A stretch of DNA of 64,000 bases, taken from the NCBI GenBank assembly GCA_030432695.1, contig JAUILN010000003.1, forward strand, positions 1 to 64,000, read 5' to 3'. The notes under the pieces are model-generated. The model worked only from the letters and a program-made list of their open reading frames with translations, was not told where the DNA came from and did no database searches. Made by a program: the position numbers and the translations under genes. Origin of the DNA: a bacterium (GTDB lineage Bacteria > Planctomycetota > UBA1135 > UBA2386). Each line of letters opens with the position of its first letter. The first letter of the stretch is position 1. Below are positions 23,547 to 53,133 of this stretch, piece by piece.

Positions 23547-25816
23547 ATGCGCCTCTCCGCGATCCTCGTCGCTGTCTGCCTCCTTCCCCTGCCGATCACG
23601 TCGCAGACCCGATGGACGCCGGCGGCGGGTGCGCCCACCGACTTCGCTCCCCAACTCGCCTTCGATCCGATTCAGGGTCGGATGATGTCGTTCGGTCCAG
23701 GTCCCGGTCTCGGGACCTTCAATGAGACCTGGGCGGAGATCGGAGGGGCGTGGCGACGGATCGAATCGGCACACATCCCCTCGGCTCGAGCCCATCACCG
23801 CATGGTGACCGACTGGACGAGGAGCCGCGTCGTCTGCTTCGGCGGCGCGCTCGAGTTCCTTGCCTCGCCGCCGGCGTCGGACGAGACCTGGGAATGGGAC
23901 GGCGTCGATTGGCAGCGGCGCACGACGCCGAACCGTCCGGCCGCTCGGCCCACGGCATGGCGTTCGACGGCGGTCGATCGGTCACCGTGATGTTCGGTGG
24001 TGTCCTCTCGAACGGTGGCTTCGCCGGGGATCTGTGGGAATGGGACGGCGTGACGTGGAGCCAGCGCCCTTCGCTCAACGGTCCGACACCCCGCGCAGGT
24101 CACGGCATGGTCTTCGACGCGCAGCGGCAGCGGGTGCTGCTGTTCGGTGGCCAAGACGCTTCGGGCCACTGCGACGACCTGTGGAGTTGGGACGGCACGA
24201 CTTGGTCCTTCCTCGTCAGCGGCGTCGTGCCGGCGCGGAGTGGCTTCGGGATGGCTTTCGACGGTGCGCGTGGCGTGGCGTTGGTCCACGGCGGCGTCGG
24301 CGCCGGAGCGACGCCGCTCGACGACCTGTGGGTCTGGAACGGTTCGACGTGGTCGTCGGGTCCGTCCGGTCCCCCGGCCCGCTCCCAGCACGCACTCGCA
24401 TACGACCCGTCGCGTGCGACGACCCTGCTGTTCGGAGGTCGGGACGATAGGGGCTCGTCTTCGGCGATGTGGCAATGGGACGGCGTTCGCTGGATGGATC
24501 TGCGGACCGAATCACCGCCTCCGTCGTTCGATCCGGCGATGGCGCGGAGTGCGGGTGGGAACCGCGTGGTCCACTTCGGTGGCTTCTCGACCGGGATGCT
24601 CGACGACACCTGGGAATGGGACGGAGCGCAGTGGCTGCTGCGTTTGCCGTCGAACCGGCCACCGGGACGCTACCGGCATGCGATGGCCTTGGATCGGCTC
24701 CGCGACCGCGTGGTCCTGTTCAGCGGCGCGGATACCAATAGCGTGCTGTTGTCCGATACCTGGGAGTGGGACGGCAACGACTGGTGGCCGCTCTCACCCG
24801 ACCGGTCACCGCCGCCGCGCGAACTGCACGCCATGGCGCCGAGCTCGGTGCAGGGCCGGGTCGTGCTGCTCGGCGGACTCGCGAACTACGGCTCGGGAGG
24901 CGTCCTCGACGACTTCTGGGAATGGGATGGTGCCGCGTGGCGGCGTCTGCCGTCTCGGCCGGTGGCGCGCTATGGACACGGCATGGTGTTCGATGCCCGG
25001 CGTGGCGTGACGGTGATGTTCGGCGGGCGCGGATCTCGAGCGGTCCTGAGCGACACCTGGGAGTGGGATGGAAGCTCGTGGTCCAATCCACAGCCCGGCG
25101 TCGCGCCGCCGGCCCGGTTGCGGTTCTCGATGGCCTACGACGATGCCCGGGAGAGGGTCGTGGTGTATGGCGGAGAGAGCTATGACTCGCCGACCTCGTT
25201 CGATGACGTCTGGGAGTGGGACGGTTCGAACTGGCTGCAGCGATTGCAGACCGATCCACCCGGCGCGCGCGTCGCGGCACCCGCGTCGTTCGATCGGGTC
25301 CGTTCGCGCGTCTTCCTGCACGGCGGCTATCTCACGCTGAACAGCCCGTTCGTGACCTCGAACACCGGCATGCAGTCGTGGCACTACGGAGCCGTGCATC
25401 AGGCGAGCACACGCGCGTTCGGCACCGCCTGCGCCGGGTCGGCAGGACTCCCGAGCCTCGCGGTCGAAGGCCGGCCATGGCTGGGCGACGTCCTCACGTT
25501 CGACGTCTCGCCGCTGCCGCCGACCGCGCCGGTCGCGATCCTGTTCGGGGTCTCGGACGCGCACTGGCAAGGTGTCCCACTGCCGCTGTCGCTGGGATCA
25601 CTCGGTATGCCGGGCTGCGAACTGTTCACGAGCGTCGACGTGGGGGTCGGGATGACGACCCTCGGCACGCACGCGACCCTGTCCCTGCCCATTCCGATGG
25701 TAGCGTCGTTGGCCGGGTCGACGGCCTTCGCCCAGGCGTTCGTCGCCGACGCGATGGCGAACGCTGCGGGCGTGGTCGCCACGCATGCGGTCGCGGTCAC
25801 CTTGGGATCGCGCTGA
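23547..25816 (+). CDS. Secreted Kelch-repeat protein, frameshifted near 23942
   Basis: Signal peptide MRLSAILVAVCLLPLPITSQ from ATG 23547, then about ten Kelch-type blades of the form R..HGMAFD..R..V.MFGG.....DDLWEWDG..W (for example VLLFGG, VTVMFGG, TWEWDGSSW), making a beta-propeller. The reading frame breaks at about 23942: the first frame ends TTPNRPAARPTAW, while the blade continues in another frame as RSAHGMAFDGG. The 2270-base span is one base short of a multiple of three, and restoring one C in the GGCCGCTCGG stretch joins the two frames exactly. The end (FGTACAGSAGLPSL onward) is the shared C-terminal module. This is either a recent inactivating mutation or a sequencing error. Confidence 0.8.
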
Positions 25817-26119
25817 TCCCGCGATCGCCCAGTACGCGGTCTAGGAGGCCGGGTCACGGGACACGTTCCGATCCAGTGCGTGACCTCGTGCCCGGGACGA
25901 AGCCGTGAAACGCAGCCGAATCGGTGGATTCGGCGAGGCTTCACGGCGATGTCCTGGGTGCGAGGACGCGTGCTGGGCGGAATGGTCTCCCGTGACCCTG
26001 CCTCCTCGGTCCGTTCCTCGACTCCTCTCGCCGACAGAGCTGCTCGTCCCAGACCGCCGGCTGCCGCGATTTCTCCAGGTCGGCGGCAGCAGCGGGGGCG
26101 GTCCGGGACGATAGGGGGC
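25817..26119. other. 303-base intergenic region holding the long-hairpin element
   Basis: Between the Kelch gene and the second sigma fusion. Most of it is the 164-base hairpin element at 25843-26006, described separately. The remaining 113 bases (26007-26119) lead to the GTG start at 26120 and end in an AGGGGGC ribosome-binding-like stretch; any promoter of the sigma fusion should be here or in the element. Confidence 0.6.
25843..26006 (+). ncRNA. Long-hairpin element, copy 1 (candidate structured RNA or MITE)
   Basis: 164 bases bounded by 19-base inverted repeats (AGGAGGCCGGGTCACGGGA at 25843-25861; partner 25988-26006, one mismatch). Inside, further arms pair in order: 25866-25870 with 25978-25982; 25872-25875 with 25974-25977; 25876-25898 with 25951-25973; 25902-25909 with 25940-25947; 25915-25922 with 25927-25934, leaving a GGTG loop. 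The whole element therefore folds as one hairpin. In the 23-base arm, six of the seven non-Watson-Crick positions are G.U pairs when read as plus-strand RNA, which argues for a transcript. A miniature inverted-repeat mobile element is the alternative. A second copy lies at 52936-53116. Confidence 0.6.
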
Positions 26120-28858
26120 GTGCCGACCACGTCCGAGATCCCGAAGTCCCTCGACCGCGCGTTCGACGCCTACCGTCGGAACGGCGATCTGCAGGCGCTC
26201 GGGCGGGTCTTCGATGCGACCGCGCAGCGACTCGTGCTGCTCGCCGCGCGCATCGTCGGCGATCCGCACCTCGCCGAGGACGTGCTGCAGCGCACCTTCG
26301 TGACAGCGATCGAGAAGCGGGAGGCCTGGGATGCGCGGCGCCCGCTGTGGCCCTGGCTGACCGGCATCCTGGCGCGTGAGGCTCAGGCCGTGCGTCGGAG
26401 TGCTCGCCGTGCGCCGGACGTGGCGCGGCTCGGTGGGTCCGGAATGGTCGAGGCTCCGGACGACCAACTCTGTCGGCGCGAATCGATCGAGCACGTGCTG
26501 GCGGCGATCGAGGCGCTCGGCCCCGCCTACCGACAGGTCCTGGTGCTGCACCTGGTCCATGGCCTGCAGGCCGCGCAGATCGCGACCGCGCTGGATCTGC
26601 CGGGTGGAACGGTGCGCAGCCGGCTCACGCGCGGGCTCGCTCGACTGCGCGCGAACCTGCCCGCCGCGCTGGCGGTGGCGTGGCTGCCGACGGAGCCGGT
26701 CGGCGCGGGAGTCGCCGAGGTCGAGGCCGTGCGGCGCGCGGTGCTGGAGGTCGGTGCCCGGGCCGTGCCCGTGGCGGGCTCGGGGATCGCCATGGGAGCC
26801 GTGGCAGGACTGTTCACGACGCTGCTGATGAGCAAGACGCAGATCACGGTGGCCGGCATCGCCCTCGCGCTGCTCGGCCTGTTCTTGCTGGTCGGACCGA
26901 GTCCGCTGCGCGGTGGCGAGGTCGAGCCTGCGCAGGTGGAGATCGTGCCGGCCGCTGGGCGGGTCGACAGCGACGCGCCCGAGCCCGAGCCCAGGTCGTC
27001 GCGCGTGCTCGCGGTCGCGGAGCCCGAAGCCGAGCCAGCACCGCAGTGCCTGGTGACCGGCCGGATCCACGACGTGCAGGGTCGGCCGGTGCCGGGCGCG
27101 GAGGTGCGGATCGTGGCCCACCACGGCGGGTTGAACGATCCGGTGGAGGTCGCGGCGTGGACCGACATCGAGATCGCAGCCGACGGGTCGTTCGCGGTCT
27201 CGCTCGCCAGCATCTTCGAACTGCCGCCGTCGGTACGGAGGACGGCGAAGCTGGTGGCGTACCCCCGAGCCGTGGGGTTCTGGACCTACACCTACAACAT
27301 CCCCGACCACCGCGAGCCGTGGCTGCCGGGGCGAGATCCGGAGTACCACTTCGACATCGAGATGGAGCCCTACCGCAACGTGATCCGGGGGCGGGTGGTC
27401 GATGCTGGTGGCTTGCCGGTCGAAGGCGCGAAGCTGGTGCTGAACGGGCCCGAAGACCACGTGCGGCATACCTGGCTCGGTGCCGGGTCGTTCGCGATCC
27501 GTGCACACGAGGTGGGGACGTACCACATCGCGGCGACGCATCCGGATCTGGGGGTGACCGTCGCGCCGGCAACGGTCGAGGTCACCGACTCCTCGGGGGA
27601 ACAGCAGCTCGGCGATCTCGTGCTCCGGCCCGCGGTCGAGGTCGAGGGGACACTGCGGATGGCGGACGGCTCGCCGGCCGCTCACGTCGCGGCTTCCCTG
27701 CGCTCGCTCGAACCGGACCCGAGCGCCGGCTACGCGCTGGCCCGTGTCGCATTCGTGACCGACGAGTCCGGCCGGTTCCGGGTGCGGAGCCTGCGCGAGA
27801 GTCTGGCCGGCTACGCACTGAGCGTTCCCTACCTGCATCGTCGAGGGGATCCCGGCTACCAGACCTTCGCGATCGACCCCAGAGCGGGACCGATCGACCT
27901 CGAGCTGCAGGGTCAGCACCTGGCGATCACGGTGCGCGATCCCGAAGGTCATGTCGTCGGGGACTGGCTCGGCATCCGCGCCTGGCTGCCGCCGGAAACA
28001 CCCGATCCGGAGGCGATGGAGCGCCTGCTCACTCATGGCGACCGCGTCCCGGGGGGCGTCTCCTGCCAGGTGCCGTATGGGTTCGCCGGTCGTCTCGCGG
28101 CGGTCGTCGCGACCGACAGCGTGCTGATCGTGAAGGCCGACGCGGTCGGTTGTTTCCCTGCTGCGGCCTGGCACCGGGCCGACCTCGGCGTAGCCCGCGC
28201 GGCGATCGATCTGACGCTGCAGGCGCAGGTGCCGGGGGTCGGTGGTCGGCTCCGCTTCGACGTGCGCGACGAGCGCGGCACGCCGGTCACGGACTTCGCG
28301 GTCCGGGTGAGCCATCCCGCAGCAGCACTGGTCGTCGAGGACCTCGAGCGGAGCGCGCTCGGTCCGGACGGAGTCAGCGGACCGCTGCCGCCGGGGCGGC
28401 TCTCCCTCTCCTTCCGCAGCGGGCCGCGCGTGCTCGAGGACGCCTTCTGGGATCGCTGCGACGAGCCGGTCGTGGTCCATGCCGAGGTGGTCGAAGGCCG
28501 GATCACTGACGTGCCGGTGCAGATCGTGCGCCGCGGGGTGGTCCGGCTCGCGCTCACCCGCCGCGCGACCGAGGTGTTCCTGAACGATGTCCGGATCCGG
28601 GGTTCGGGCGCGAGCGGGGAGATCGATTGGACCTTCAAGCAGCGCGATCCGGACGGCAGCTACACGGGAGCCGGCTCGATCTGGTTCCAGCAGGGCTACG
28701 CGGGGCCGGTGTTCGCCTACGGCCGGGCGGCGTCCGGGCCGGTGTCGATCAGCATCGAGGTGCCCGGCGAGCGCGTGCGGCAGATCCGTGCCGAGGTCCG
28801 GCCGCACGAGGTCACGGCGATCCCGGTCGACCTGGACGCTCCGCCGGACGAGCGCTGA
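26120..28858 (+). CDS. Second ECF-type sigma factor/transmembrane/CarboxypepD-like fusion
   Basis: A 912-residue fusion. Residues about 12-180 form an ECF sigma factor: region 2 (IVGDPHLAEDVLQRTFVTAI, near 45-65; WLTGILAREAQAVRRSARR) and region 4 (LQAAQIATALDLPGGTVRSR, about 149-168, after YRQVLVLHLVHG). One transmembrane helix lies near 243-262 (ITVAGIALALLGLFLLVG). The remaining 650 residues contain at least four carboxypeptidase-regulatory-like beta units (CLVTGRIHDVQGRPVPGAEV, VIRGRVVDAGGLPVEGAKLV, VEVEGTLRMADGSPAAHVAA, GGRLRFDVRDERGTPVTDFA). Start is GTG 26120 after AGGGGGC. Same layout as the gene at 10235 but with diverged sigma and sensor parts; no anti-sigma gene is adjacent. Confidence 0.9.
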   Translation: MPTTSEIPKSLDRAFDAYRRNGDLQALGRVFDATAQRLVLLAARIVGDPHLAEDVLQRTFVTAIEKREAWDARRPLWPWLTGILAREAQAVRRSARRAPDVARLGGSGMVEAPDDQLCRRESIEHVLAAIEALGPAYRQVLVLHLVHGLQAAQIATALDLPGGTVRSRLTRGLARLRANLPAALAVAWLPTEPVGAGVAEVEAVRRAVLEVGARAVPVAGSGIAMGAVAGLFTTLLMSKTQITVAGIALALLGLFLLVGPSPLRGGEVEPAQVEIVPAAGRVDSDAPEPEPRSSRVLAVAEPEAEPAPQCLVTGRIHDVQGRPVPGAEVRIVAHHGGLNDPVEVAAWTDIEIAADGSFAVSLASIFELPPSVRRTAKLVAYPRAVGFWTYTYNIPDHREPWLPGRDPEYHFDIEMEPYRNVIRGRVVDAGGLPVEGAKLVLNGPEDHVRHTWLGAGSFAIRAHEVGTYHIAATHPDLGVTVAPATVEVTDSSGEQQLGDLVLRPAVEVEGTLRMADGSPAAHVAASLRSLEPDPSAGYALARVAFVTDESGRFRVRSLRESLAGYALSVPYLHRRGDPGYQTFAIDPRAGPIDLELQGQHLAITVRDPEGHVVGDWLGIRAWLPPETPDPEAMERLLTHGDRVPGGVSCQVPYGFAGRLAAVVATDSVLIVKADAVGCFPAAAWHRADLGVARAAIDLTLQAQVPGVGGRLRFDVRDERGTPVTDFAVRVSHPAAALVVEDLERSALGPDGVSGPLPPGRLSLSFRSGPRVLEDAFWDRCDEPVVVHAEVVEGRITDVPVQIVRRGVVRLALTRRATEVFLNDVRIRGSGASGEIDWTFKQRDPDGSYTGAGSIWFQQGYAGPVFAYGRAASGPVSISIEVPGERVRQIRAEVRPHEVTAIPVDLDAPPDER

Positions 28859-52842: not shown

Positions 52843-52935
52843 CTCGGGGTCCTCCCGCCGCGGGCGAGGTCCCGCGTCGGTCGACCCAGGTTCCGGTGTG
52901 CGCCGGATCTCGGGCAGGCCGCCGCGAGAAAAACT

Positions 52936-53116
52936 AGGAGGCCGGGTCACGGGACACGTTCCGATCCAGTGCGTGACCTCGTGCTCAGGTCGAAGCCGCG
53001 AAACGCAGCCGAATCGGTGGATTCGGCGAGCCTGCCCACCGAGGAGCACTGCGCGGCGAGATCCTGGGCGCGAGGGCGCGTGCTGGGCGGAATGGTCTCC
53101 CGTGACCCTGCCTCCT
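52936..53116 (+). ncRNA. Long-hairpin element, copy 2 (candidate structured RNA or MITE)
   Basis: Same element as at 25843, 181 bases here, because the apical part has extra bases at about 53030-53050. Terminal inverted repeats 52936-52954 and 53098-53116 are the same as in copy 1. The main arm 52969-52989 pairs with 53063-53083, and 52995-53000 (GCCGCG) pairs with 53052-53057 (CGCGGC). The corresponding copy 1 pair is GCCGTG with CACGGC, so a U-A pair has become C-G. The loop hairpin GCCGAATC ggtg GATTCGGC is unchanged. It lies between the 3' end of the long ELWxxDGT gene and the 5' end of the kinase, on the opposite strand to both. Confidence 0.6.
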
Positions 53117-53133
53117 CGCGGTTGCTCGACCGG

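Follow-up and report, generated by a model that had tools for sequence, protein, structure and literature searches.

A hairpin-forming repeat of Planctomycetota: a putative MITE family with a conserved core, variable arms and one better-folding strand

Bacterial MITEs are usually regarded as decayed insertion sequences bound to one transposase. According to the available part of a review, ERIC, NEMIS/Correia, RUP and YPAL are intergenic MITEs of approximately 100-200 bp that contain no genes, carry terminal repeats and duplicate their targets; their transcripts are predicted to form long stem-loops, and RUP has ends in common with an IS630 element (PMC2229807). IS1272, of the IS1182 family, is reported in the excerpted account to target inverted repeats able to form stem-loops (PMC5678879), so a step that depends on a fold has precedent. 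A study of the preference of IS630 for the TA in CTAG is named in the references of the ISY100 paper, itself available in part (PMC2170065), and GTAG REP repeats with RAYT have been reported in Planctomycetes in a paper whose accessible portion contains no occurrence of CTAG (PMC3733652).

The element considered here occurs in a 64-kb window (the whole stretch of planctomycete DNA that was analyzed). Our preferred reading, to which we give a probability of about 0.7, is that it is a gene-less MITE likely moved in trans by transposases of the IS1182 and IS630 families, and that its hairpin is likely kept for the fold of one strand during spread.

The element in the window and its dispersal

The first copy is a 160-nt hairpin unit reading GAG...CTC (25845..26004, plus strand), delimited by its fold and by comparison with other copies; its plus strand, which gives the core as CGCAG...CGAGG, is also the better folder. 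The unit is preceded by CTAG (25841..25844), which occupies the place of the 4-mer found duplicated beside other copies, and followed by CTCG (26005..26008), which is one base off CTAG. Its left terminal inverted repeat is GAGGCCGGGTCACGGGA (25845..25861, plus strand), and the right one reads GAGGCAGGGTCACGGGA on the minus strand (25988..26004). Between them lies the conserved core CGCAG-C-CGAATC-GGTG-GATTCG-G-CGAGG, with a 3x3 internal loop GCA/GAG (25911..25938, plus strand). The covariance model R1 matched 25889..25960 of the plus strand with 90.4 bits (E 4.0e-18), a score obtained with a model that includes the sequence of this copy itself. The second copy (52938..53114, plus strand; core 53004..53031, plus strand) measures 177 nt, the additional length being contributed by a small 17-nt branch 3' of the core. 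It too lies between CTAG (52934..52937) and CTCG (53115..53118), so that the flanks of both window copies represent an imperfect duplication.

A first-pass annotation, made from the letters of the window, had described terminal inverted repeats of 19 bases, identical but for one mismatch, a single hairpin from end to end, and a second copy at 52936-53116 with unlike flanks, all of which the sequence and the comparison of the two copies bear out. The minimum free energies are -130.9 kcal/mol for the first copy (z -13.1) and -129.4 kcal/mol for the second (z -11.4), far below those of shuffled sequences, none of 200 shuffles equaling either value. The extent of 164 bases given there is right for the hairpin, but the boundaries of both units are slightly tighter (25845-26004 and 52938-53114). 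It had also located both copies on the 3' side of secreted repeat-protein genes, which is partly right. The first copy lies 24 nt past the stop of a Kelch-repeat ORF and upstream of an ECF sigma-factor ORF (23750-27022 of the window). The second is separated by about 15 nt from the stop codon of a minus-strand ORF of 1037 aa, whose only domain match is a weak ChW, and is upstream of a kinase-TPR ORF. The window has no match in Rfam 15 at the gathering score, the stretch of the element gives one chance-level microRNA match (E 0.9), and no paper on this repeat family turned up in the literature searched, which lies mostly outside the subscription journals. The earlier statement that no named planctomycete family has this sequence is consistent with Rfam and this literature.

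That the element is present twice is true of the window but understates the genome, a 10.03-Mb assembly of 37 contigs and 88% completeness. A DNA search recovered about 40 copies there (the best 40 of 111 candidates scored), and the covariance model search that had been proposed, carried out with a model built from 27 varied cores, yielded at least 67 matches at at least 66 places, one of them matched on both strands (best 150 of 19,695 candidates). The palindrome CGAATC-NNNN-GATTCG occurs 55 times in this genome, against 0 occurrences of the reversed pattern. By DNA search, 9 of 61 genomes of relatives match, its own genome counted in; of 392 genomes sampled from the phylum, 20 contain the element according to the covariance model, several with 12 or more matches. 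The complete chromosome of Pan216 carries at least 114 (best 150 of 7,931 candidates scored). The possibility that the annotation had raised against itself, two copies only and pairing without conservation, gives way to many copies with compensatory changes. A chance palindrome or an assembly artefact is scarcely credible in view of the z values of both window copies, the excess of core palindromes over the reversed pattern, and the number of matches on a single complete chromosome.

An exact-core scan of named genome contigs returned at least 109 stretches, and the titles among the matches listed comprise 108 planctomycete names and one "bacterium isolate bin.15"; with exact-core matches at or above the 109 listed, carriers in other phyla may exist. 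Plasmid and phage sequences searched for the element gave no match. The element is thus short, dispersed and gene-less, as a MITE is: its commonest length is 158-160 nt, and, by codon-based gene calling, 113 of 129 copies with resolved ends lie clear of called genes (at most 60 nt of overlap), as do all 70 of the Pan216 copies counted.

Target sites and candidate partner transposases

Ends could be resolved for 129 of 199 cores, the other 70 being dropped; noise comes from some evidently wrong end assignments among the 129 (L029, L075, L092, L237). CTAG forms the left flank of 66 and the right flank of 72 of these 129 elements. In 38 elements both flanks differ from CTAG, and in 12 of them the left and right 4-mers coincide (TTAG, CTAA, CCAG, ATAG, GTAG, CTTG, CTGG, CGAG), against 1.8 expected, a number reached in 0 of 10,000 shuffles. 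Since these 4-mers are direct and not inverted repeats, the hairpin itself cannot generate them. By end type, the excess is significant for CAG only (9 of 19, 1.6 expected), with 2 of 13 for GAG and 1 of 6 for TGG (p 0.17 each). The suggested check for target-site duplications has therefore returned 4-bp direct duplications of a CTAG-like target. The miniature inverted-repeat element that was one of the earlier alternatives is now well supported by dispersed copies, duplications and insertion sequences with matching ends and target, and judged on sequence the element is a member of a MITE family of Planctomycetota.

We find no general preference for palindromic targets (junction inverted repeat 4.40 vs 4.26, p 0.24). 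Fold energy at the junction is lower (p 0.0015), a difference confounded by flank GC (0.67 vs 0.64). One element (L029, G000:C31:221269-224449) sits in the center of a REP palindrome, GTTGGTGCC|element|GACACCAAC. Tandem copies with a common CTAG, either two elements of unlike arm types or an element and an IS, occur at L020, L030, L104, L063 and L066. In 30 of the 129 resolved elements, the stop codon of a neighboring gene lies within the flanking CTAG-like tetranucleotide; these stops may reflect insertion into a stop codon or truncation of the gene by insertion, the two being indistinguishable here.

If the element is moved in trans, then insertion sequences with similar ends should be the candidates for its partners, and terminal inverted repeats resembling those of an autonomous element were found in three settings. 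Genome G021 has, between CTAGs, an IS of about 1.56 kb that adjoins an element and has the 15 bases of its left end in common with it; the ends of the window copies, such as the left terminal repeat of the first, equal this IS end at 12 of the first 15 bases. Its 437-aa transposase matches NF033551 (IS1182) with 373 bits against a cut-off of 270 and contains DUF772 and DDE_Tnp_1 domains, and the portion of the IS sequence inspected has no element core. A second IS start resembling that of G021, with a GAGTCTGCGCCACGGGA end, lies at a contig edge in G014. In G395, a broken IS1182-like element has an end identical in 13 of 14 bases to that of the local element (CAGGCTGTGGTGAA vs CAGGCTGTGGCGAA). 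The host of the window offers an IS630 of about 1.2 kb between CTAGs on contig C28, whose transposase scores 286 bits against a cut-off of 100 and whose ends match the second arm type at 18 of 20 positions. That IS630 end is seen again at one edge each of C5 and C15 (L350, G000:C5 end; L351, G000:C15 start), contigs that are interrupted within this IS630, so its copy number in the host is underestimated. From these resemblances between element ends and intact IS, we propose that IS1182- and IS630-family transposases would act on the element in trans.

The partner is not in evidence everywhere. A search for IS1182 at E 0.001 in 15 element-bearing genomes matched 7, of which only G021 passes the cut-off, and gave no match in the other 8, Pan216 included. 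The host genome has no IS1182 gene above the cut-off, only a 37.9-bit fragment, and no partner IS for the arm type of the window copies was found there. Proteins recurring beside copies include no shared transposase, and in the loci sampled, CAG-type ends do not occur in pairs at IS spacing (of 50 pairs, 47 are spaced by 100-199 bp). The target of the IS701 family is YTAR. A DDE_5 search matched 3 of 13 genomes and produced no IS701 partner, and this candidate was rejected; one sub-threshold DDE_5 match pointed to the IS1182 element of G021.

A repeat of the REP/REPIN type, mobilized by a Y1 (RAYT) transposase, would likewise be palindromic, intergenic and present in many copies, and the host has two Y1 genes. 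Both, however, adjoin other palindromes, 28 of 30 Y1 loci lack the core and end motifs while the other two have only a CTAGTGG heptamer, four genomes (G009, G025, G042, G017) carry elements without a Y1 match, and the ends of the element are duplicated targets. No Y1 gene is flanked by copies, and RAYT/REP mobilization, a very remote prospect on this evidence, was rejected. The host Y1 (RAYT-like) genes (L123, G000:C7:5103-8351; L141, G000:C11:140029-143352) have palindromic repeats of their own beside them, for example TCTGTCGTAGTTGGTGCCAGGCACCAAC.

Core, arms and the better-folding strand

Elements are mostly 158-160 nt long, with longer classes of 177 and 192 nt. Their constant part is CGCAG-N-CGAATC-NNNN-GATTCG-N-CGAGG, which folds, in the 26 of 34 cluster representatives that measure 156-163 nt, into a 6-bp stem, an N.N position, a G-C pair, the 3x3 internal loop (GCA vs GAG) and a C-G pair. 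Identity was compared in 23 clusters found by means other than the exact-core pattern, since a set chosen by that pattern presupposes the core. Across these the 28-nt core is 82% identical and the arms 35%, with 28% for shuffled arms, and the contrast between core and arms is an upper bound because the 23 clusters still came from searches that lean on the core. The A.G opposition in the internal loop is present in 23 of 23.

The longer classes (window 52938-53114; L020, L023, L025, L026) have extra modules, either a small branch next to the core or CCAAGACTCCAGGAACACGAG inserted in one arm. One locus (L113, G055:C176:1600-3100) has two core palindromes 31 bases apart, like a duplicated hairpin tip, and three short relics that retain both ends without a core appear to be internally deleted (L352, G000:C30:442200-442700; L353, G000:C35:549800-550500; L354, G000:C15:536000-536700).

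The arms pair in spite of their divergence. Paired cells make up 79.9% of the total, compared with 67.8% for shuffled and 30-48% for slid arms, and double-changed cells number 95 vs 47; pairs changed on both sides are unexceptional (18 vs 15.8, with 51 of 500 as high). In the 9 of 34 clusters with at least four members, from which variants and substitution rates were counted, variants common to two or more copies comprise 40 double Watson-Crick changes, 4 double mismatched, 28 G.U, 9 A.C and 27 other single mismatches, and variants of single copies comprise 15 double Watson-Crick, 5 double mismatched, 48 G.U, 30 A.C and 90 other single mismatches. It looks as if pairing is upheld in source copies and decays after insertion, and selection would then act on the source copies. 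G.U:A.C does not, however, shift significantly from the shared to the single-copy group (p 0.15).

Matched arms could also arise without selection, through template switching at the hairpin, that is, palindrome correction during replication. This would explain why 40 of the 44 shared double changes that are either mismatched or Watson-Crick are Watson-Crick, and also how arms of unrelated sequence still pair. The same correction would, however, mend the mismatches of the internal loop, whose A.G is kept in every cluster compared, and it does not predict the asymmetry between the two strands described next, so we regard template switching as an unlikely account of the arms.

When the core sequence, and not the fold energy, decides which strand is meant, that strand forms a stabler fold than its complement in every element (129 of 129) and every sequence cluster (34 of 34), in 127 of 129 elements when DNA parameters are used, and in 69 of 70 Pan216 copies. 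(Fold and gene-context counts for Pan216 cover 70 of its 114 matches, of which 6 have no GAATC in the oriented stretch.) Isolated arm mismatches between Watson-Crick pairs, core excluded and with one element per cluster (the same 26 representatives of 156-163 nt), are G.T in 62 cases and A.C in 11. G.T is the more frequent in 16 clusters, A.C in 1, and 9 are equal. It is this 62 to 11 that template switching leaves unpredicted.

If the bias were simply inherited from a few ancestral G.T sites, or mutational through more C-to-T change on one strand, then no selection would be needed. The copies within a cluster are related, and the G.U excess among single-copy variants is weak (48 to 30, p 0.054), both of which suit such an origin. 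In the youngest cluster the excess of G.U over A.C is absent (19 to 17 cells). Against it, the bias holds in all 34 clusters even though their arms are largely unrelated (35% identity vs 28% shuffled), and at unpaired sites C>T (0.040) matches G>A (0.038), which shows no strand bias; at pooled paired sites T>C is slightly above A>G. We therefore consider an inherited or mutational origin improbable. On the reading that we prefer, the far better fold of one strand implies that spread would depend in some way on the folded single strand.

Orientation and relation to known systems

If the core strand acts as RNA, with copies transcribed and the hairpin read or cut as has been proposed for NEMIS and ERIC, then the bias would come from selection on the RNA. 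The preservation of G.U over A.C on the core strand would be expected, the conserved 3x3 internal loop resembles a recognition site, and convergent gene pairs flank Pan216 copies more frequently than divergent pairs do (26 vs 8). Orientation relative to neighboring genes is unbiased, however, both across all genomes (24 sense, 31 antisense) and in Pan216 (19 sense, 15 antisense), while in Pan216 it follows the replication arms, and the element matches no Rfam family. We hold the RNA reading to be possible but doubtful.

In Pan216, where dnaA is at the record start and GC skew changes near 3.4-3.6 Mb, the first half of the chromosome has 46 minus and 18 plus copies and the second 17 minus and 33 plus, which places 79 of 114 in one orientation relative to the fork (p 4.6e-5). 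Hence the strand that folds poorly tends to be the one in the lagging-strand template. Pan216 genes are themselves unbiased (115 of 231 co-directional), so gene direction is not the cause. In the genome of the window, orientations cluster within contigs (p 0.04), but in a manual count over seven sampled contigs only 22 of 35 copies are oriented as the GC skew would have it; the replication-orientation bias is clear in Pan216 only. Copies in the minority orientation in Pan216 do not have weaker hairpins (p 0.08, in the opposite direction). Deletion of copies whose strong strand is on the lagging template is consequently unsupported, and, since the minority copies fold no worse, a preference at insertion is more plausible than the loss of unfavorably placed copies.

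Because orientation in Pan216 follows replication arms and not genes, we prefer, at modest odds, a DNA-level step at the replication fork to one involving RNA. The folded core strand would then be recognized as single-stranded DNA at the fork and not as RNA, and selection would likely act on the single-strand fold during spread, at the fork. A more elaborate version, in which the 28-nt core is the unit of inheritance throughout Planctomycetota, has taken on the ends of IS1182 and IS630, whose transposases are unrelated, and spreads as a folded single strand at the fork with the wobble-kept core strand recognized, seems to us distinctly speculative. In any case, the strand bias and the replication-arm bias together offer a way to ask whether selection on hairpin MITEs acts through a DNA fold, through an RNA or not at all, and Pan216, complete and with its at least 114 copies, is a suitable genome for that question.

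The comparison with described systems shows both kinship and departure. The element is like REP/REPIN sequences in being palindromic, multi-copy and intergenic, but unlike them it ends in CTAG-like duplications and has no Y1 gene beside its copies. It is tied to the IS1182 family through the partner transposase of G021. IS1272 replaces its target without duplication, according to the excerpted account, whereas the planctomycete element shows a 4-bp duplication and, in contrast to the inverted-repeat targeting of IS1272, no general palindromic preference (p 0.24) (PMC5678879). With IS630/Tc1-mariner elements such as ISY100 it shares the second arm type, which matches host IS630 ends between CTAGs. 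IS630 duplicates TA, as stated in the available part of the ISY100 paper (PMC2170065), and the planctomycete elements with TGG ends (n=12 resolved) are too few to tell 2 from 4 bp.

The element is most like ERIC, NEMIS, RUP and YPAL, as the review portion describes them, in that it is short, gene-less and intergenic, with terminal repeats and target duplication (PMC2229807). Compared by description, its CTAG ends and core match no feature given there for ERIC, RUP or NEMIS (PMC2229807). The MITEs tabulated in that review are each confined to one genus or to related genera, whereas the planctomycete core spans a phylum, and, unlike them, its arms and ends change to suit different IS (PMC2229807). 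With a conserved middle and exchangeable ends, the hairpin would be a parasite of several transposases.
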